This document shows, piece after piece, positions 6,168-28,013 of a DNA stretch of 64,000 nt. The translations under genes were made by a program, and so were the position numbers. Location of the stretch: the NCBI RefSeq assembly GCF_900114355.1, contig NZ_FOSS01000002.1, positions 387,491 to 451,490 on the forward strand. The letters run 5' to 3'. This DNA is from Lysobacter sp. cf310 (GTDB lineage: Bacteria; Pseudomonadota; Gammaproteobacteria; Xanthomonadales; Xanthomonadaceae). Position 1 is the first letter of the stretch, and the number at the start of each line of letters is the position of its first letter. Below the pieces are notes generated by a model. It searched no databases, was not told the origin of the DNA, and worked only from the letters and a program-made list of their open reading frames with translations.

Positions 6168-7071
6168 TGCTCGTTCCCCTAAAGTCAGGCCAATGCGGCG
6201 GTCTGCGGAATGAAGGCGATGTGGCGGCGCTGGCGTAACCATCCGCAGGAACATCGCGATGGGCGCGCTCGCCGATGCGACGCGCGCGCCGATCGGCCTC
6301 GCCTTCCGGGAGGCACGCGTAACCGGATCGGATCGGTAGTCGGCGCTTCACAACCGGGGTCGCAGGCCTGGTCCGGACGCAGGCATCCGGTCGCATCGCC
6401 GCCACGCTCGTCGGTCATTCGCTTCATGCACTGCCCATCCTGTTGGCGGTCCGAAGCGCGCTATCTCCGCCGTGAAGAGATGCGCAACTGCTCGTTCGCG
6501 ACGAACGTTAGCGAGCGCAAGTCGCGAATACACGCACGATTTCTCACCAACGAATCCTGGGCGCGAAGGCGATTTCTCTGGAGGTGGATGCGCGATCGAA
6601 TCGGCCAGTGCGACGACGTTCTTTCGCGCATGCGAACGCAGCGAAGCGGGATCGCGGCGGCGCCGCACGAGAGATCGATTCGCCGAATGCCACAGGCGGA
6701 GACGAGAGTACATACGCCACGCCTGCCGATACCGCCCGGGGCGATGGTCCGTGCGGCTGCATCGTCCCGAGCGCACACGCAATCGGCGACGCCCGGCGAC
6801 GCAGTGCGCACGCGAAGCTAGCCGATGCTCACCTACGGTGAGAAATCAAACGAGTACCCCGCGCTCGCCGCGACCGAGCGAGCCGCACAAAATGTGACAT
6901 CCACTAGAGTTTTCCGCCGACGCGGCGCGTGCCACGTCGGCGTGCCAAAGCGCGGTGCTAACCTGACCACCGGTAGTCATCTAAGACACATAACCGCCAC
7001 CTTCCGTACCTAATCCGCTGAGCGAGCGCGCTCCGCTCCTCGGCCATCGATCGCTCCCTGTCTAGCCCACG
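6168..7071. other. Gene-poor intergenic region between adhesin and histidine kinase
   Basis: About 0.9 kb between two divergently transcribed genes. Several open frames occur but none has a plausible protein composition (rich in Arg, Cys, Ser, with no domain or signal sequence). The stretch should contain the promoters of both flanking genes. The only motif I note is TGTGACATCCACTAGA at 6893-6908, which shares TGTGACATC with the Clp-like box at 11782-11797 but has a poor second half. No terminator or large repeat is visible. Confidence 0.6.
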
Positions 7072-8532
7072 ATGACCGTCCGCGTACCGCCCCAGTCTGT
7101 TTGGCACGGCCTACTCGATTGGGTGCAGCGCGTGCCCGCCCGCGCCGCGCACGACCGACGCAATGCGCTGACCCTGCAGGCGCTGCTCGCGGTCGCAGTC
7201 GTAACCGCGCTGTTGGCGACGATCGGGGCCTACGCGGCCGCCCAGAACATGACCCGGATCACCGAGAGCTGGCTCACCCTGGTCATCGGCGCATACGCAT
7301 TGTCTTGCCTGTGCCTGCTGCGCAAGGGGCATTTCCGCTTGTCGGCCAGCCTTACCGTTATCGGCGGCCTGGTCCTGATGGGCATGAGCTATCAGGCCTA
7401 CGGATTGCGCGCGCAATCCGGGCTGCAGATCACCCATCTGCTGCCGCTGCTGTTCGCCGGCCTGCTGCTGGGCCGGACCGCGGTGTGGTGGACCGCCCTG
7501 GCCTATGCGGCGGTGCTGACCTTGGGCACGCTTACCGATCTGCGCCTGGCGACGGATGCCAGCCAGACCTCGGACGCCTTGACCAACCTGCTGCTGGCGG
7601 GCCTGAACTTCCTGGTCCTGGTAACCATCCTCGATCGCCTGATCCTGTCGTCGCAACGCGCGATCCGTCGCAGCGAAGAACTCAACGCGACCTGCCTGGA
7701 GCTCGAGCGCCAGGTGGAGGAAAAGGAGCGCGCCTACGAGCGTCTGCTGCAGACCCAGAAGATGGAAACCATAGGCCGCCTGTCGACCGGCATCGCCCAT
7801 GACTTCAATGCCATCCTCAGCGTGATCCTGGGCCAGGCGACGTCGGTGAACCTGCGCGGCGGTTCCATCGATACGGTGCTTCCAGGCATACGCGACGCGG
7901 CCCGACGCGGCGCCACGCTCACTCGACGCCTGCTCAGCTTCAGCCGCACCCACATCAGACAAGTGTCCACCTTCGATCTTGCCGAGGCGATCGACGAGGT
8001 GCGGCCATTGCTGCTGCCGATGTTCTCGCGCGCGATCCAGGTCTCGCTGGATACCTCCGCCACCGGCCTGCGGGTCAGCGCGGATCGCGACGAACTGGTG
8101 CTGGCGCTGTTGAACATCGCCAGCAACGCCTGCGACGCCATGCCGAAGGGCGGCCGCTTTCTGCTCGCGGTCGAAGCCGACGGAGCGCATGCCTCGCTGC
8201 GTTTGGAAGACACCGGCTGCGGAATGACACCGGAAGTACTCGCACGCCTGTTCGAGCCGTTTTTCACCACCAAGCCCAAGGATCGGGGCACCGGCATCGG
8301 CATGGCGACCGTGCGTCGTTTCGTCGCAGATCACGGCGGCGACATCGAAGCCGACAGCGCCCCAGGCCTGGGCACGCGCATCCGGATCCGTCTGCCGCTG
8401 GCGGAGCCCGCACGCGAGTCGTCGCAAGCGGCGCGCACGGATATTCCGTTCGAGCATGCGACCGTAAGCGAACGCTCGACGCATGCGTCTGCGGCCGTCG
8501 CCGTTGCGGGCGATCGCGCCGCCGCTCGCTGA
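7072..8532 (+). CDS. Membrane sensor histidine kinase
   Basis: Two-component sensor kinase of 486 aa. The N-terminal ~200 residues contain about five to six hydrophobic membrane segments with no large periplasmic loop. A short coiled coil (around 200-230) leads to the dimerisation/phosphoacceptor helix with the H-box IGRLSTGIAHDFN (phosphoacceptor His243). The HATPase domain shows the N-box (NIASNACDAM), G1 (DTGCGM), F-box (FEPFFTT) and G2 (GTGIGMATV). The C-terminal ~50 residues are low-complexity. The gene ends 21 nt from the convergent propeller gene; the response regulator upstream of that gene is the natural partner candidate. What it senses is not evident. Confidence 0.9.
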   Translation: MTVRVPPQSVWHGLLDWVQRVPARAAHDRRNALTLQALLAVAVVTALLATIGAYAAAQNMTRITESWLTLVIGAYALSCLCLLRKGHFRLSASLTVIGGLVLMGMSYQAYGLRAQSGLQITHLLPLLFAGLLLGRTAVWWTALAYAAVLTLGTLTDLRLATDASQTSDALTNLLLAGLNFLVLVTILDRLILSSQRAIRRSEELNATCLELERQVEEKERAYERLLQTQKMETIGRLSTGIAHDFNAILSVILGQATSVNLRGGSIDTVLPGIRDAARRGATLTRRLLSFSRTHIRQVSTFDLAEAIDEVRPLLLPMFSRAIQVSLDTSATGLRVSADRDELVLALLNIASNACDAMPKGGRFLLAVEADGAHASLRLEDTGCGMTPEVLARLFEPFFTTKPKDRGTGIGMATVRRFVADHGGDIEADSAPGLGTRIRIRLPLAEPARESSQAARTDIPFEHATVSERSTHASAAVAVAGDRAAAR

Positions 8533-21142: not shown

Positions 21143-21925
21143 CTAGGGGACGACGATGGAGATGTTGGCGCGCTCCGTGCCCGGCGGATCGCCCAGCTTC
21201 GCCCAGAAATCCGAGTCGCGCATCCAGGGCTGCAGGCCCATGGGAAAGTCGCGGCTGGGAATCGGCGGCAGCTCGGCCGCGGTGAAGTCGTTGCCGTAGG
21301 GCACCAGCGCCTTGCTCACGTCCGGATTCTGGATATGAGGACGGAGTTTGTTCAAAGCAACATTCCAGTTGTCCAGCAGATCCTTGCGCGTGATCGGCCC
21401 GCCGGGCTTGTCGGCCGTGGGGTGCAGCGCCTTTTGATGGAAGGCCGTCACCGCCTGCCCGGCCGGCGTCGCCTTGAACGCGGTCCAGGCGTTGAACGCG
21501 GCATTGCCGAAGGTGACGACGGCTTCGATCCGGCCCTTCGCGAACGCCGCTTCCAGCCACTGGTGGCGATAGGCCTGAATCTCCGGATCGTTCAGATGCG
21601 GCATCGCCATGTCCTGGTTGAAGATGCCGTACGCGAACGCGTTGATCATCAGATAGCTGCGCGTGAAACCCAGCTTCTCGACGAAGCCCTGCACGCGCTG
21701 CCCCGCCTGCCCCGACAGAATCCGGCGCGTGAATGCCTCGGTCTGGGCCGGGTCCTGGCCGATGACCAACAGGCGCGCGGTGCCATTGGCACGGCCGCGG
21801 TAGAAGATCGGGCCCCATAGCGAACGAAACCCGTCCGCGCCCCGATACACCGTGGCGTCGGGATACTTCTGGCACAGGGTGCGGAATTTGCCCGTAGGGC
21901 CGGTATCGAACGGGTCCGTGTTCAT
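21143..21925 (-). CDS. Uracil-DNA glycosylase superfamily protein
   Basis: 260 aa from ATG 21925, which has GGAGG 5 nt upstream. Probable base-excision repair enzyme or relative: the UDG-fold first motif appears as LLVIGQDPAQTEAF, a central aromatic segment as YLMINAFAYGIFNQD, a core strand as EAVVTFGNAAFNAW, and the C-terminal motif around ALHPTADKPGG. The motifs differ from canonical Ung (GQDPYH, HPSPLS), so this is a divergent branch and the substrate is uncertain. The neighbouring plus-strand gene is convergent; no repair gene stands nearby. Confidence 0.72.
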   Translation of the reverse strand: MNTDPFDTGPTGKFRTLCQKYPDATVYRGADGFRSLWGPIFYRGRANGTARLLVIGQDPAQTEAFTRRILSGQAGQRVQGFVEKLGFTRSYLMINAFAYGIFNQDMAMPHLNDPEIQAYRHQWLEAAFAKGRIEAVVTFGNAAFNAWTAFKATPAGQAVTAFHQKALHPTADKPGGPITRKDLLDNWNVALNKLRPHIQNPDVSKALVPYGNDFTAAELPPIPSRDFPMGLQPWMRDSDFWAKLGDPPGTERANISIVVP

Positions 21926-22222
21926 CGTGGCCTCCATGGCGCGGCGGTGTCGCCTACTAGGAACGCGGTCTTTTCCCGTCTGCGGCCATGGCCGGCGATA
22001 ACGCGGGCATGGTTCGGGCCTTCCGACGCAACGACCCAGATGAATGCGGCCCGGACTTCGCACGATGCAAGCGCCACGCCCGGGAGACCGGACCTTACGC
22101 GCCGCGGCCGAGCCCGTGAAGGGGCGACCGAGAACCGCGCCACCCAGCCGGAACCGCGATCGGACGGGCCAGGCATCGATTAGGATGGCCATCGAACCGA
22201 GCATCGCCTTAAGGGGGAGGAC

Positions 22223-22663
22223 ATGCTCACCGCACTGCTGCTGGCCGCCATCCTGGTCTCGGGCCAGGCGCAACACCGGGTCGTCGAGCCCGCGCCGCGC
22301 AGCGAGGCGGCCGCCTCGACCGTGTCGGTCGTCGGCGCCAGCCTGGGCTCGCACGTGGACCACCAACTGCGCACGCCCGTTCCCAAGACCCTGTTCAAGC
22401 CGACCGACAGCATCCACCTTTCGATCGCCACGCGCGTATCCGGCCCCGATCCGGTGGTGGGCACGCTGGGGGTGCTGTGGACCTACGGCGAAGGCGAAGA
22501 CCGCCAGGCCGTCAACGACGACAGCCGCGAAATCCTGTTCGAGGGCCAGGGCTACACCGTTTTCGAGATTTCCAAGCCGAACGACTGGCCGGAGGGCCGC
22601 TACCAGGTCGAAGTGTTCCTCAACGGCGTGAGCGTCCATCGGGCTGCCTTTAAGGTCCGGTGA
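22223..22663 (+). CDS. Secreted protein of unknown function, Ig-like
   Basis: 146 aa with a strong ribosome site (AAGGGGGAGGAC before ATG) and a short signal peptide (LTALLLAAILVSGQAQ). The mature part is beta-rich. The terminal stretch WPEGRYQVEVFLNGVSVHRAAFKV resembles periplasmic Ig-like domains that help build or sense surface structures. Followed by two further small exported proteins in the same direction. No function assigned. Confidence 0.65.
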   Translation: MLTALLLAAILVSGQAQHRVVEPAPRSEAAASTVSVVGASLGSHVDHQLRTPVPKTLFKPTDSIHLSIATRVSGPDPVVGTLGVLWTYGEGEDRQAVNDDSREILFEGQGYTVFEISKPNDWPEGRYQVEVFLNGVSVHRAAFKVR

Positions 22664-22817
22664 GGCCCTGCGCTTTCGCACCCGATCCACCTCGCAATCC
22701 GCCTGCGCTCCAGCCTCGAACTTTGACGACTAGCCGCAGACGCCCCGACCGCTCGCCAGCGCATGACGATTCAAGCGCGCGATAAGCCTTACCCCGCCAC
22801 TACCCAGGAGATGCACC

Positions 22818-23219
22818 GTGACCGTCAGAGCCATCGTCTTGCTTGCTGCCTTGTTCACCGGAAACGCCTGGGCGGTGGATCGGTGGGTGGCGCCACCGGC
22901 GCCTCGAGTTCGCGACGGCACGCCCATCCAGCCGCAAGCCGAAATCTACGCCGACCATCGCTACATCATTCATCTGCCGAAACCGGAAGGGGACTGGCGC
23001 CAGAGGCGCTATCTCGTCTACCTCGAGCGCAGCGACGAGCAGCCCTTCTGGGCCACACTCGAAACCCAGATATTCGAAAAAGACGACGAGGTTGTCTTCA
23101 TAACCATCCCCAAGGGCAGCCAGGACAAGTACCAGCTCGAAGTAGTCGACCGGACCAGCTATCCCTACACGCGGGTATTCAAAGGGAATCTGGGCAGCAT
23201 CCGGGAAATCGAAGACTAG
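22818..23219 (+). CDS. Small secreted protein of unknown function
   Basis: 133 aa from GTG 22818 with AGGAG 7 nt upstream and a clear signal peptide (VRAIVLLAALFTGNAWAVD). The mature domain is short and beta-rich, with several charged strands (RYLVYLERSDEQPFW, DDEVVFITIPKG, KYQLEVVDRTSYPY). No family recognised. It follows the 22223 gene by 154 nt and may be functionally linked to it. Confidence 0.6.
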   Translation: MTVRAIVLLAALFTGNAWAVDRWVAPPAPRVRDGTPIQPQAEIYADHRYIIHLPKPEGDWRQRRYLVYLERSDEQPFWATLETQIFEKDDEVVFITIPKGSQDKYQLEVVDRTSYPYTRVFKGNLGSIREIED

Positions 23220-23272
23220 CGCCCCCAGACGAAGCGCACGGCCTCCCGGCCCCTCCACCCTGCAGTGGCCCC

Positions 23273-23731
23273 ATGACGAAAGCTCTCATTGCGCTATTGG
23301 TTGTCTCGCCCCTATGGCTAGTCCATCCGGCAATGGCGCAGGGCTTTCCGGAGGCATGCGACGGCATCGGCCTGCGAGTTCGCAGCGAGACTTACATGAT
23401 GACCGCCCTGCTCTCCATGCAAGCGCACATCTGCGCGGAGATCGCGCCAGACACCGCGCCGTCCTTCGACAGGGTCCTGGCCCGTTACCGCGAAAAAGCG
23501 CCGCAGTGCTATGCCGCAACGCGCGCCAGCCCCGAACTGGCGGCGTTCCCGGAATCCGCGGAGGCCAAGGCGCTGATCGCGGACTACCGCAGCGGCGCGA
23601 TGCCCGAGGAAAAACGCGACCGCCTGCTACGCGAATGCCGGACCATCGAGGCGACCCAGCAGCAGCGCCAGGACGAACGCGATGCGCTGGAGGCGCTGTT
23701 TCCAAAACTTCCCGAGGACACGGGCGGTTGA
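23273..23731 (+). CDS. Small secreted Cys-containing protein of unknown function
   Basis: 152 aa from ATG 23273. The signal peptide (LIALLVVSPLWLVHPAMAQ) is followed by a mostly helical mature domain with four cysteines spread along it (EACDGIG, AHICAEI, PQCYAATR, RECRTIE), suggesting two disulfides. A charged C-terminal helix (TQQQRQDERDALEALF) ends the chain. No recognised domain. Confidence 0.6.
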   Translation: MTKALIALLVVSPLWLVHPAMAQGFPEACDGIGLRVRSETYMMTALLSMQAHICAEIAPDTAPSFDRVLARYREKAPQCYAATRASPELAAFPESAEAKALIADYRSGAMPEEKRDRLLRECRTIEATQQQRQDERDALEALFPKLPEDTGG

Positions 23732-23823
23732 GCCTTTGCCTGGCACAGCCATACCTCCGCCGGCGCACATCGAATGAATCATCGTTGTTTGTATCGGCCT
23801 GTCGGCCGACCAGGAGCAGGCCC

Positions 23824-24333
23824 TTGATCGAGCTTCCCATAAGAGAACCGTGCGACCTTTGCGTGGCGGCTCGCGAAGAACGCTGGAAGATCATCGAGGA
23901 GGGCGAGCACACGCTCACTGTGATCAATCCGCGGCAGTTCGAAGTGGGCCAATGCTGCGTGATCACCCGTCGGCATGTCGCAACGCTGCTCGATCTTTCA
24001 CAGCAAGAATGCGAGGCCGTGCTGATCTCGGCAAAGCGAGTCGCGCAGGCACTTGTCCTGACCTATCGCCCCCTCGGAATACTGACGTTTCAGAACAACG
24101 GGGTCTACAGCGGACAGGAAACACCGCACTTCCATTTCCACGTGGTACCCCGCCAGCGGGGAAGCGACTGGGGCGTAGGCCCGCCACAGCTCGCGACCTT
24201 CGATGGCGCCGGGCGCGAAAGAGGCAGCTCACACGAGCCCAGCGGGGATGCGCAGCGTCGCGAGCGGGTCCAAGCGTCCGCCAAGCGACTTACCGAAACC
24301 GTAAACCTGATTCGTTCGAATCTGCCGGGATAG
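23824..24333 (+). CDS. HIT-family protein
   Basis: 169 aa from a TTG at 23824 that has AGGAG 7 nt upstream; no good ATG stands in frame nearby. The histidine-triad signature is HFHFHVVPR, preceded by the usual ILTFQNNGVYSGQ strand and an N-terminal Cys pair (CDLCVA) seen in many HIT proteins. Members hydrolyse or transfer nucleotidyl groups; the substrate is not predictable here. The C-terminal 30 residues are charged and helical. Confidence 0.8.
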   Translation: MIELPIREPCDLCVAAREERWKIIEEGEHTLTVINPRQFEVGQCCVITRRHVATLLDLSQQECEAVLISAKRVAQALVLTYRPLGILTFQNNGVYSGQETPHFHFHVVPRQRGSDWGVGPPQLATFDGAGRERGSSHEPSGDAQRRERVQASAKRLTETVNLIRSNLPG

Positions 24334-24460
24334 CCAGGCCGGCAGCCCCGGATCGGCCGCCTATCGAATAGGCATCGAGGGCGCGGCCCGCCATACGATG
24401 CACCGTGGGCAGGTCGTACAATCGCCCCCGGAATTCGAATACTAGGCAGCTAGGTGCCGC

Positions 24461-24856
24461 ATGCAGCTTGTTCTGACCGAGTGGTACAGAAAATGGCGTG
24501 GCGCGGAGCCCCAGAAGATCCAGCCAACAGTTCTTCCGCTCGACGACGAGCGCGCCCTATTCGGGCTGTTGGTCATGCTGGGCAACGGCGAGTACGACGA
24601 CCTTTGCATCGAATCCGACAGCGCCGAGGCACTGAAATCGGCCAGGGAATTGCTGCTCGGAACCGGCGGCGCCGATAGAGCCCATGATCATCCGTTGGCA
24701 AACAGCTCTCCGCTGTATCGACCTGGCTACGAGATCTACGTTCAAGCCGACCAATCAGTCTTCTTTCTGAACCCTGAGCCCCGCCCAGCGCTGTTCCAAT
24801 CGGATATGGCTGCGTACATCGAAGAGTTTGGTTCGCCACTGGATCTGCCGAAGTAG
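24461..24856 (+). CDS. Hypothetical acidic protein
   Basis: 131 aa, cytoplasmic by composition, starting MQLVLTEWYRKWRG. It has a leucine-rich helix (ERALFGLLVMLGNGEYDDL) and an aromatic segment (YEIYVQADQSVFFLNPEP). No signal, membrane segment or known motif. Base composition is somewhat lower in GC than the neighbours, and the region around 24.9-26.5 kb shares this, a weak sign of different ancestry. The coding call rests on open length and codon pattern only. Confidence 0.5.
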   Translation: MQLVLTEWYRKWRGAEPQKIQPTVLPLDDERALFGLLVMLGNGEYDDLCIESDSAEALKSARELLLGTGGADRAHDHPLANSSPLYRPGYEIYVQADQSVFFLNPEPRPALFQSDMAAYIEEFGSPLDLPK

Positions 24857-25047
24857 CCAGGACCTCGCAGTGTTCCAACTCAAGCGTCGGGCCGCAGCAG
24901 GCTTGATGCGCGTACCGCCAGAAACAGGGATCAGAACGGGCTTTCTAGAAAATCAGCTCTGCCCCTTGTTTCGCCGAAACGCGATCGAATGGCGTTATGA
25001 CTTCGCGTTTCATCGCTCAGTCATGCTGCTCCGAAGCAGGCAGCAGA

Positions 25048-25548
25048 TCATCCCATCCCCGGACAACTCAACGCCGGCATATCTACTTCGACACAGCTCT
25101 TGGGGCCGCCGTCGACACTGGTACACGCCTGCCCCGTCTTAGTGGTGCTAATGCAGTCCTGCCAGGGATTATCGCCACCACCCGAGATCGGCCCGCTTCC
25201 GCCGCCGACTGCACCCCCGCCTCCATTGCCGACCTCGCCAGTACCGGTCCAGTCGCTGTACCAATAGCCCTCAGAAACGAACTGACCCGAAATCACCACG
25301 GCCGTGTAGAGCGAGCATTTGGTTCCGTTGCAGATGGTCACCTGATTGGGACGATTGTTGGAGTCGACCCAACTGGTGACCTTCTCGTTGACGATGGCGC
25401 GAATGAACGTATACGTGTCACCCATTGCAGGCCCCGCGCCCACCTCACAGGTGGCGCCGCAATAGAAGCGGCCGACGTACTTGGCTGCCACCCAACCGGT
25501 CACGGACGCCAGCAGCAGCACCAGTCCGATTTTGGCATAGGTCTTCAT
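25048..25548 (-). CDS. Signal-anchored protein with Gly-rich linker, unknown function
   Basis: 166 aa. The N-terminal hydrophobic segment (KIGLVLLLASVTGWVAAKYV) is a signal peptide or anchor. The exported part has about eight cysteines, a strand-rich middle (VTICNGTKCSLYTAVVISGQ), a glycine-rich linker (EVGNGGGGAVGGGSGPISGG) and a short Cys-rich tail. Its ATG overlaps the stop of the upstream gene by 4 nt (ATGA), so the two are translationally coupled. Both lie downstream of the cobalamin riboswitch on the same strand. No family recognised. Confidence 0.6.
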   Translation of the reverse strand: MKTYAKIGLVLLLASVTGWVAAKYVGRFYCGATCEVGAGPAMGDTYTFIRAIVNEKVTSWVDSNNRPNQVTICNGTKCSLYTAVVISGQFVSEGYWYSDWTGTGEVGNGGGGAVGGGSGPISGGGDNPWQDCISTTKTGQACTSVDGGPKSCVEVDMPALSCPGMG

Positions 25549-26351
25549 TTCTTCACTCCTGCGGCTTGAACGGTTTGAACGTAGGCGGCGCCGAGGGCTT
25601 GCCCTTGCTTGATCTGCGAAGGCGACAAGCCGCGACCGAGCTGGCCCAGCCGCAGGGCGGATACAGGCGAGTTCACGATCTGATGGCGCGCATACCCGTA
25701 GGCGTAGGCCTGCAACGGGTCCGCTGGGGTAAACAACCCGGTGTCGTAGTTTTCGGACAGTCGCGAAAGCGCCTCGACGCTACCGGCTTTGACGGCCTGT
25801 TCGAGATAGCGCATCGAATCGCGTTTGTATCGAGTGATCAGGTCGGTATCCAACGCCGCTTTCTGCAGGTCAAACACGCCAGCGGCCAGTAGCGAGAAAT
25901 CGAGCTGGGCCTGAAGGTCTCCGGCCTCGGCCGCATGTTCAGCCAGGGCATACACGCGGTATGGATCTGGATCAGGCGGGCAGTTCGCGTCCAGCGCGCC
26001 GCTGCTTTTCAGGAACTGCTCGGTTTGAACTTGCGTGAGCCCTTCGGGCACTGTCAGCTTGCGATTCGCCAGCCGCAGGCACTTGCTAAGGGAATGCGCT
26101 TCGGCCAAGGCAAGCTCAGGCGCCATCGTGCCGAGCCTCTGCGCTGCGACTCCCGCATTGGATGTACGGGGCGGACTGCGCACGCCCTCGATGGCGGCAA
26201 CGGACGCCGATGCCGTCGGCGTTGTCGTGCCGCTCACCGTGGTGGACGGAGGTGACGCAGGGGCACCGGCGTTCTTGACCCTCAAGAACGCGATGGCTGC
26301 CAGCGCCATCAGCACTACCACGCCTACTACCACGATGCGCTTCTTGCTCAT
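25545..26351 (-). CDS. Single-span membrane protein with Sel1-like helical repeats
   Basis: 268 aa from ATG 26351 (GGGGCAGGG just upstream); a longer frame reaches 26450 without a good start signal. A transmembrane segment (RIVVVGVVVLMALAAIAFL) is followed by a Ser/Thr/Pro-rich linker and a helical domain. Paired helices such as AEHAAEAGDLQAQLDFSLLAAG and LEQAVKAGSVEALSRLSENYD resemble Sel1/TPR-like repeats used for protein contacts. Four-nucleotide stop/start overlap with the downstream gene. It begins MSKKR, like the small frame upstream (MSKKG). Function unknown; possible B12 control is inference from the upstream riboswitch. Confidence 0.65.
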   Translation of the reverse strand: MSKKRIVVVGVVVLMALAAIAFLRVKNAGAPASPPSTTVSGTTTPTASASVAAIEGVRSPPRTSNAGVAAQRLGTMAPELALAEAHSLSKCLRLANRKLTVPEGLTQVQTEQFLKSSGALDANCPPDPDPYRVYALAEHAAEAGDLQAQLDFSLLAAGVFDLQKAALDTDLITRYKRDSMRYLEQAVKAGSVEALSRLSENYDTGLFTPADPLQAYAYGYARHQIVNSPVSALRLGQLGRGLSPSQIKQGQALGAAYVQTVQAAGVKK

Positions 26352-26514
26352 CCCTGCCCCACCGAGCACGCTGGTTGCGTGCAATCCGTTTGAACTATAC
26401 GGCGAATCATTGGCGGCCCCGATCGTTCGACCATATACATAACGACCCAAGGGGAGGGGCCCCTACTTCCAACTTCATCTGGATGCCTCAGCTGTAGTTG
26501 ATCGTTCGCGACCG

Positions 26515-26625
26515 CTACCACCAGCGCGCGGCGTAGGTAACAAACGCAAGCGCAATACCGATGGACAGGATCAATGCCGCATTAGCCAGCTTGTTCCCTA
26601 CCCGATCCGCGCCCTTCTTGCTCAT
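26515..26625 (-). CDS. Candidate small membrane protein downstream of the cobalamin riboswitch
   Basis: 36 aa: a charged head (MSKKGADRVGNK), one hydrophobic helix (LANAALILSIGIALAFVTYA) and an RWW tail. This is the first plausible protein after the riboswitch on the minus strand. The same frame extends to an ATG at 26751 (78 aa), but the extension looks unlike a protein. No convincing ribosome site is seen, so the coding call is tentative. It does not match CbtB (no His-rich tail). Confidence 0.4.
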   Translation of the reverse strand: MSKKGADRVGNKLANAALILSIGIALAFVTYAARWW

Positions 26626-26785
26626 AGCGCCCCGAACCTCAAGCTTGCTGCGACCGCTTTCGCTTCTCATCGGACTGTCCCACAAAGACGCGCACTCCCC
26701 TGCGACCCGAACAAGGGCTACTGGACGCAACACGGGGACATAAGCAGACATGCAAGGCCCCGCGACAGGCAAGCGCCAGTCGACT

Positions 26786-26812
26786 AGCTCAATCGCGTGC
26801 GTTGATTGAGCT
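26786..26812 (-). other. Hairpin at the 3' edge of the riboswitch (possible expression platform)
   Basis: Perfect 9 bp arms AGCTCAATC / GATTGAGCT around a 9 nt loop, beginning within the ACAGCTC that directly follows the conserved CCTGCCGACAG end of the aptamer. No U tract follows on the minus strand, so it is not an obvious terminator. It could compete with aptamer closing pairs or act on translation. Confidence 0.5.
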
Positions 26813-26985
26813 GTCGGCAGGTCTTCGGACTCTCGGGCACGGAAGGCTGACCTCCCACCTAATCCGCCACTTCCCGAGGGCTGCGCCTCAGTGCTCGTGG
26901 CGGGATCGTTCCCGATTACCGCTGCGGGGCAGTGTCGGAATAGCGCGAACGCCTCACCGACTTCCCTTTCAATCCATACGGCTTG
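26811..26985 (-). ncRNA. Cobalamin riboswitch (AdoCbl/B12 element)
   Basis: Read on the minus strand, the conserved blocks appear in the right order and spacing: AGGGAAGTCGGTG (26967-26955), the B12-box core CTGCCCCGCAGCGGTAA (from 26932), GCACTG (near 26893), GGGAAGTGGCGG (near 26875), and the terminal block GAGTCCGAAGACCTGCCGAC ending near 26813. These match the cobalamin riboswitch family; I judge this from memory of the consensus. It is 3' of a well-formed promoter. No btuB, cob, nrd or metE gene follows. Confidence 0.9.
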
Positions 26986-27009
26986 CTGGCCGATAGAACC
27001 GACGTTACG

Positions 27010-27038
27010 AAGATAGTGAGAAGGTTTCGCCTCGTCAA
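27010..27038 (-). promoter_or_regulatory. Sigma-70 promoter of the cobalamin riboswitch transcript
   Basis: Minus strand TTGACG (27038-27033), a 17 nt spacer, then TATCTT (27015-27010); transcription would start near 27003, about 35 nt before the first conserved riboswitch block. The surrounding 27000-27060 is locally AT-rich. It lies just past the end of the methyltransferase gene, so the riboswitch has its own transcription unit. I see no gene in 27039-27218. Confidence 0.65.
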
Positions 27039-27218
27039 CACCAAATATAGTGTTTTGACTCAATGCTTTAGCTCTCCGACAAGCGAGCAGCACTCTGCTT
27101 GCCGTCCGAATGCCCGGGCGCGTACGCGATCTGGAGCCGGAGCTGAGGCAGTCGCGAAAGAACAGCTCTCAAACGGCAAATAAAGGCTGCCGATGCGCGG
27201 TCGCGGCGCGTCAGCCGA

Positions 27219-28013
27219 TCAACGGCACCGGGCGCTGACGATCCACGCCCGCGAGCCGAACCACACGCCTCCATCCCGATAGTGCTGAGCGACGACGTCG
27301 TGCATCCTCTCCCGCTCGCGCTCGGCGGCCGCTATGTCCAGCGACTGTAGGGCGGTCTTGGTGGCCTGGAATTGCCCGATCCATTCCAATGCGGCCTCGA
27401 CGCTGTCGCCGTAGTACACAGGTTCTTGCACGTCCTGGAACGTCACCTGCGCGAACCCGGCCGTATCGAGCAGGCACTCCACTGTCGCCGGATCGCCTAA
27501 GGAGAAGGCGGCGGGGGACTGGGCGTTGGTGCCCTGTATGGCGGTGGTCCATTCGTTGGCCTCGCGGGCTTGCCAGACCATCATCACCAGGCGGCCCTCG
27601 TCGGTCAGTACGCCGCGAACATGGCGGAAGGCGGCGGCGGGGTCGGCGAAGAACATGGTGCCGTAGCGGCTGATAGCGACGTCGAACGCGTTCGCGGGAA
27701 ACGGATAGGCCTGCACGTCGCCCTGCTCGAAACGCACATTGCGCAGGCCCTGCGCCGCGGCCCGTTCGCGCGCGCTCGCGATCGCCGACGCCATGACATC
27801 GACGCCATACGCACCGCCCGCCGTGGCCGCACGTGCGGCCTCGCGGGTGGTCAGCCCTGTCCCACAGCCGATGTCCAATACCCGCTCATGCGCGGCGATG
27901 GCGCAGGCACGCATGAACAGCGGATGGTGCCGCTGCAATTCGGAGTCGAAGTCCACCGGTGCGCCGCCCGCCTTCGGGCGCGAATCCGGCGATGCCGCTT
28001 CAAAGGAGGTCAT
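27219..28013 (-). CDS. Class I SAM-dependent methyltransferase
   Basis: 264 aa. A Rossmann-type methyltransferase domain spans about 40-160: motif I VLDIGCGTGLTTREAA, motif II in GAYGVDVMASAI, motif III around VRFEQGDVQAYPFPANAFDVAISRYGTMFF, and a later DEGRLVMMVWQ. The C-terminal third (FQDVQEPVYYGDSVEAALEWIG) is typical of UbiE/COQ5-like enzymes acting on small molecules. Substrate unknown. It stands alone, upstream of the riboswitch unit and separated from the hydrolase gene by 130 nt. Confidence 0.8.
   Translation of the reverse strand: MTSFEAASPDSRPKAGGAPVDFDSELQRHHPLFMRACAIAAHERVLDIGCGTGLTTREAARAATAGGAYGVDVMASAIASARERAAAQGLRNVRFEQGDVQAYPFPANAFDVAISRYGTMFFADPAAAFRHVRGVLTDEGRLVMMVWQAREANEWTTAIQGTNAQSPAAFSLGDPATVECLLDTAGFAQVTFQDVQEPVYYGDSVEAALEWIGQFQATKTALQSLDIAAAERERERMHDVVAQHYRDGGVWFGSRAWIVSARCR

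Follow-up and report, generated by a model that had tools for sequence, protein, structure and literature searches.

Which gene does a cobalamin riboswitch serve when no B12 gene stands behind it? This question is raised by a 64,000-nucleotide stretch of Lysobacter sp. cf310 (contig NZ_FOSS01000002.1), hereafter the window, on whose minus strand an earlier note had described a cobalamin riboswitch with its own promoter, followed by genes without a recognised link to B12. Either a new B12-controlled function or a switch left behind by a lost target was proposed there. Based on sequence comparison, we suggest that an nrdA-type leader has been joined to the gene of a phage-family, 51-residue single-helix membrane protein, forming a mobile cassette in accessory DNA, a reading to which we assign a probability of about 0.6.

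Identity and kinship of the aptamer

26799–27018, minus strand: cobalamin riboswitch aptamer (RF00174, 98.9 bits), with P1 formed by 27003–26999 and 26817–26813

A cmscan run established the riboswitch on the minus strand at a score well beyond the gathering score of 31.5 (E = 1.8e-23), the match covering RF00174 model positions 1–189 and thus a full-length aptamer. When compared with 152 other aptamers, it kept 38 of 39 columns conserved to at least 97% and 51 of 53 columns conserved to at least 90%, whereas over the 165 variable columns its best identity to any other aptamer was 0.64.

We read the gene behind the riboswitch for 154 RF00174 matches from 58 genomes, comprising 98 from the genus (20 genomes), 55 among the family matches listed and one from the order; the family riboswitches represent the best-scoring loci and genomes already of interest rather than a random draw. 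Target labels were given by tblastn to own-genome genes and by eye, with six example proteins checked with Pfam. The targets were btuB (56), nrdA (49), metE (26), an mmsA-like aldehyde dehydrogenase (13), cobN (5), another TonB receptor (3) and a MetE-like gene (1), leaving the focal switch as the sole one of the 154 without a transport, corrinoid or B12-alternative gene behind it; the earlier note was right that no known B12 gene follows. The 13 aldehyde dehydrogenases read as methylmalonate-semialdehyde dehydrogenase (e.g. L147 1856–3220; Pfam Aldedh, one checked).

The focal genome (4.7 Mb, 12 contigs) yielded five RF00174 matches including the focal one. Of the remaining four, two stand before TonB receptor genes regarded as btuB, one before nrdAB and one before metE; a Pfam check covered one receptor, NrdA and MetE. 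This genome also encodes the B12-dependent NrdJ (582.5 bits) beside nrdAB, a setting in which B12 can replace the class Ia ribonucleotide reductase (RNR).

A tree of 153 aptamers placed the focal aptamer inside the nrdA switches of other genera and away from those of its own genus. Its grouping with nrdA aptamers received support of 93/91 (11 rows) and 98/96 (13 rows), on a long branch and with the bootstrap unsettled. One aptamer (G020_C34_168522) was dropped from this tree, from the aptamer profile and from the conserved-column count. The B12 riboswitch is genuine, probably functional and akin to the nrdA switches.

An accessory insert with a small membrane protein gene

21996–27217: accessory insert, 5,222 bp, between a methyltransferase gene and a uracil-DNA-glycosylase-like gene
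26515–26670, minus strand: 51-codon ORF with one hydrophobic stretch, PHROG 12997 family
25545–26351, minus strand: gene of a weakly Sel1-like membrane protein
25048–25548, minus strand: gene of a Cys-rich anchored protein, overlapping the stop of the Sel1-like gene

Blastn comparison with the loci of two same-genus genomes, G012 and G013, showed that homology stops at 27218, where the methyltransferase gene ends. In the comparison with G012, homology returns at 21995, before the gene named by eye as uracil-DNA-glycosylase-like, with 633 bp in place of 21996–27217; these junctions define the stretch as accessory. RF00174 was absent from the G012 and G013 loci, and the syntenic btuB that the earlier note had considered for relatives was not there. 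From about 22500 on, the G+C content of the insert is 0.59–0.66, versus 0.65–0.71 in the flanks. No repeats of at least 20 bases were present in 21900–27400 and no tRNA-end-type repeat in the window. An integrase was not recognised by eye in the insert, and virion genes were found there neither by eye nor by Pfam in five ORFs, PHROGs having been applied to the 51-codon ORF. The insert also holds a HIT-domain ORF (23314–24330, plus strand; Pfam HIT 4.5e-12, PADLOC HIT-family model ThsC 4.8e-20).

The 36-residue membrane frame that had been placed directly behind the switch proved to be the 3' part of the 51-codon ORF, which starts 45 bases further upstream. Its product has a basic amino-terminal part and one hydrophobic stretch (Kyte–Doolittle maximum 2.0, 19 residues from residue 28), and matches PHROG 12997, an uncharacterised phage family, over residues 7–44 (E = 2.3e-9). 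PADLOC gave no family for this protein at E 0.001. Probably by chance, the same frame is open upstream through the whole aptamer, giving 192 codons when read from a GTG (27093–26515, minus strand).

For the next gene, the label Sel1-like is weak, with a Pfam E value of 0.23 and 12.5 bits against a cut-off of 30.7. It is possibly read through from the same promoter and co-transcribed with the 51-codon ORF. Distant relatives of the Sel1-like and Cys-rich genes lie side by side in two further genomes of the genus, G007 (L102 7422–8701) and G002 (L103 7842–6689), and a search of the genome contigs with the 268-aa protein gave no match. As RF00174 is absent from both loci of these paired relatives, the two genes are poorer target candidates than the 51-codon ORF.

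A second cassette in another genus

A DNA search with 27062–26775 in 397 genomes of the order matched 63 genomes, the focal one included. One of these, G420, belongs to another genus of the same family and carries, besides its nrdA switch (G420a), a second switch elsewhere (G420b; RF00174, 112 bits). Behind G420b lies an ORF of likewise 51 codons, whose product is 53% identical to that of 26670–26515 without gaps, and the start codon follows the 3' strand of P1 at 148 nt in the focal cassette and 151 nt in that of G420. Comparison of the two ORFs yielded a dN of 0.43 and a dS of 1.33, with 15, 17 and 29 differences at the three codon positions. The G420 protein also matches PHROG 12997 (E = 4.7e-8), and for neither ORF did Pfam return a family at E 0.01. 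Like the focal genome, G420 encodes NrdJ (580.9 bits). Just these two cassettes were found in 395 family genomes, 38 genomes of the genus of G420 and 397 of the order, samples that overlap.

Alignment of the focal and G420b leaders scored 94, a value reached by none of 2000 shuffles (maximum 68 or 73 in two runs), and the best of 56 nrdA leaders scored 57 against the focal leader. Without the first hairpin the score was 77 versus a shuffle maximum of 63. In a four-way alignment, leader identity amounted to 50% for focal/G420b and 53% for G420a/G420b, the latter likeness being weak, as 13 of 2000 shuffles were as good, and lost beyond the first hairpin, where 405 of 2000 were. The likeness of the focal leader to the G420 nrdA leader was equalled by 636 of 2000 shuffles, or by 1889 of 2000 with a slightly different cut, and beyond GACAGC a profile showed no likeness of the focal leader to nrdA leaders.

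The aptamers, like the four-way leader identities, count against a simple single origin of the two cassettes. At the columns conserved in nrdA aptamers alone (n = 80), the focal aptamer deviates at 6 and G420b at 7. G420b is identical to the nrdA aptamer of G420 at 188 of 191 positions, and the two form a group (100/88) that does not take in the focal aptamer; this nrdA-aptamer tree omits four of the 50 nrdA and focal rows, whose core had not been cut. As the two cassette aptamers do not group, either gene conversion in G420, which would explain the kinship of G420b, or two separate assemblies must be assumed. The two G420 switches (L255 7662–7881 and L256 6373–6592) have promoters that are 80% identical next to the more divergent leaders, the aptamer appearing as if gene-converted.

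The G420b cassette is located between a tRNA-Met gene and an integrase gene, beside an Mrr-type endonuclease, a ScaI-type endonuclease and a DNA methyltransferase. The 3' end of the tRNA-Met recurs about 140 bases past the ORF (24 of 26 bases; L278 10751–10776 and 14022–14047), a repeat that is likely an attachment-site pair as expected for an integrated element.

Promoter and NrdR-like boxes

27010–27038, minus strand: sigma-70-type promoter TTGACG-17-TATCTT
27038–27053, minus strand: NrdR-like box 1, ACACTATATTTGGTGT, overlapping the −35 box, 15/16 to the NrdR consensus
27006–27021, minus strand: decayed NrdR-like box 2, TCTCACTATCTTCGTA, over the −10 box, 8/16, right arm lost

The promoter, too, stood up to analysis: TTGACG-N17-TATCTT is the sole promoter-like site in 24900–27300, which alone is no better than chance (shuffles, mean 0.6), and it is conserved in the aligned nrdA leaders. 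The distance of 35 nt that had been given between promoter and riboswitch holds if the count begins with the first base of the −35 box and not otherwise, because P1, starting at 27003, begins about where transcription would start.

NrdR-like boxes were scored against an NrdR consensus. Box 1 outscores every other site on either strand of the window; the centres of the two focal boxes are 32 bp apart, leaving a spacer of 16 bp. A pair with centres 31–32 bp apart and a score of at least 20 occurs in 47 of 48 nrdA leaders, in 45 of these 47 at 32 bp. For centres 30–33 bp apart, the best pair has a median score of 23 in nrdA leaders and of 14–16 in the other classes, compared to 23 at the focal locus. 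G036, whose locus match lacks the upstream part, was left out of the count of pairs at 31–32 bp and of the conserved-column counts. Box 1 scores 15 in both cassettes versus at most 14 in the 47 nrdA leaders, and box 2 scores 8 in both, equal to the lowest of the 47, its right arm being gone also in G420b. NrdR sites are commonly spaced by 15–16 bp, and both boxes are needed in E. coli (PMC12051234). With box 2 decayed, NrdR control is probably weakened at the focal promoter.

Judged by these sequence features, the parental leader is of the nrdA (class Ia RNR) type. As both aptamer and promoter are of this type, btuB was rejected as the lost target.

The leader between aptamer and ORF

26786–26812, minus strand: hairpin immediately following P1, stem AGCTCAATC / GATTGAGCT, loop containing GCAC
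26757–26763, minus strand: GCGGGGC, candidate kissing-loop partner, a 7-nt complement of the conserved aptamer loop GCCCCGC (26930–26924)

The hairpin following P1 has counterparts at the same place, with stems CCGCGCG/CGCGCGG in nrdA leaders and CCCCATT/GGTGGGG in G420b. The stems thus differ among nrdA leaders, focal leader and G420b, and the loop keeps GCAC. A search of the genome contigs with the focal hairpin gave no match. In cobalamin riboswitches, ligand binding is coupled to a contact of loop L5 with the downstream loop L13, and a G-rich partner is accordingly expected for the GCCCCGC loop (PMC10653944). For this reason we dropped the assignment of the hairpin as P13 and refer to it merely as a conserved hairpin. 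The G-rich candidate GCGGGGC is present in the G420b leader as well. Its complementarity to L5 extends over 7 nt, the other classes having a median of 5–6 nt and a maximum of 7 nt (nrdA, metE), although at the focal locus it falls in a predicted stem rather than a clear hairpin loop. Shuffled sequences fold as well as the leader (z = 0.32), the folds of the focal and G420b leaders agree by eye in the first hairpin alone, and a search of the stretch from aptamer to ORF revealed no intrinsic terminator.

Relatives of the small protein

At E 0.01 the 51-residue protein had relatives in 8 of 395 family genomes. Those of the focal genome, G420, G131, G553 and G632 held up on reading, and the matches in G007, G458 and G288 (E 0.002–0.005) were discarded as chance after reading their loci. 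The proteins of the focal genome and of G131 also match PHROG 28762, whereas that of G420 does not at E 0.1. Furthermore, 25 viral loci, several of them near-identical, were obtained out of 75 pattern matches. The phage relatives are of similar length, and the shared core reads GxMSxxGADRxGNKLANAALI. Searches with the 51-aa protein in plasmids and phages, with alignment A1 in viral contigs and with the G131 protein in phages returned no match.

Applied to the 25 viral loci, the five genome loci and the window, the aptamer profile detected an aptamer at G420 and in the window alone. RF00174 of Rfam was likewise absent from the G131, G553 and G632 loci, of which the G553 locus covers about 860 bases upstream. 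The aptamer core pattern occurred in one viral contig, which has no recognisable target. Phage genes surround the gene in G131 and G632, including a P22-type coat protein in G632 and a PHROG 26190 neighbour in both. Several phage relatives lie between virion genes in positions that, by eye, vary, as for an accessory phage gene. A T-run hairpin shortly precedes the gene in 12 of 21 viral loci (counted by eye). One viral contig, L282, carries two members of the family that look unlike each other, separated by about 1 kb (6902–7084, placed by eye, and 7980–8129).

Discussion

In the arrangement that we favour, AdoCbl most likely represses the small membrane protein, the sign of regulation being taken from the riboswitch class. 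With AdoCbl plentiful, the aptamer would close P1, and the GCCCCGC/GCGGGGC loop contact would then alter the leader such that the ORF is not made, either through blocked translation or through Rho-dependent termination; these two modes are proposed because no intrinsic terminator was detected ahead of the ORF. With B12 scarce, when the host depends on class Ia RNR in place of the B12-dependent NrdJ, the small protein would be made. Its task is most likely an accessory membrane function of phage type, to judge from the family it belongs to and from its surroundings. A more specific proposal, in which a mobile membrane protein of phage origin is wired to B12 and, through the residual NrdR site, to dNTP signals, so that exclusion or defence of a phage type is switched on together with class Ia RNR, appears rather improbable.

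The two options of the earlier note, a new function or a lost target, both deserved weighing, and the evidence leans towards the former. An nrdA leader could have arrived with the accessory DNA, lost nrdAB and become functionless, consistent with the kinship of the aptamer, the decayed box 2, the nrdA-type platform missing after P1 and a window in which no remnant of nrdA, nrdB or metE was found (best E 0.58). We consider this unlikely, as the same switch, leader and ORF recur in a second genus, which speaks for a new target instead of a relic, and as the aptamer core is intact despite divergence elsewhere and dN is below dS in the ORF. It is improbable that the target of the switch is instead the Sel1-like and Cys-rich pair, with the small ORF a mere leader peptide of their operon: the two genes lie on the strand of the switch, with no other promoter-like site found in 24900–27300, and are paired in G007 and G002, but in G420 switch and ORF are followed by different genes, the loci of the pair's relatives lack RF00174, and 163 bases separate the ORF from the ATG at 26351.

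An aptamer that is the attachment-site copy of a riboswitch-integrating island, exerting no control over the next gene, has a precedent in Vibrio cholerae GI-23, described as inserted in the btuB cobalamin riboswitch (PMC12409358), and both cassettes do lie in accessory DNA. This origin is nevertheless very improbable here, since promoter, whole aptamer and leader are all carried with no nrdA adjoining, the att-like repeat in G420 is a tRNA-Met end past the ORF instead of the aptamer, and the focal insert region lacks repeats of at least 20 bases. Antisense or sequestering RNAs switched by B12 are known elsewhere, so the transcript might act as a B12-responsive small RNA with an incidental ORF; ORFs of equal length in two genera with dN below dS, together with phage relatives of similar length, make this extremely improbable.

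The other 153 riboswitches read all precede transport, corrinoid or B12-alternative genes, and the combination of B12 switch and phage-family gene would bring mobile accessory functions into the B12 regulon. B12 limitation offers a defined condition under which to seek the function of an uncharacterised phage protein family.

Comparison with known systems

Excerpts of the open-licence literature among the matches listed contained no cobalamin riboswitch placed before a phage-type small protein. The 49 nrdA(B) cobalamin riboswitches resemble the focal element in their NrdR-box promoter, aptamer and GCAC-loop hairpin after P1, but behind the focal one there is no nrdA, its platform is unrelated to the nrdA leader once past the first hairpin, and its box 2 is decayed. 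Proteins of PHROG 12997 and PHROG 28762 share the 51-residue ORF and the core, and unlike the focal gene, the phage and prophage relatives examined have no cobalamin aptamer. The Mbox riboswitch (PMC12810186) is similar in that its direct target is a conserved small ORF with a homologue outside riboswitch control; it differs in its ligand, Mg2+, and its phylum, and the abstract mentions no phage family. A glutamine riboswitch on phage genes (PMC9004378) likewise serves a phage-type gene but responds to another ligand and belongs to the genome of a marine phage instead of accessory DNA in a bacterium. GI-23, in turn, shares the association of an accessory island with a cobalamin riboswitch, yet that island is described (PMC12409358) as sitting inside the btuB riboswitch, whereas the focal switch is complete and heads its own gene. 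The focal cassette represents known parts in a new combination, a B12 riboswitch on a phage-family small membrane protein.
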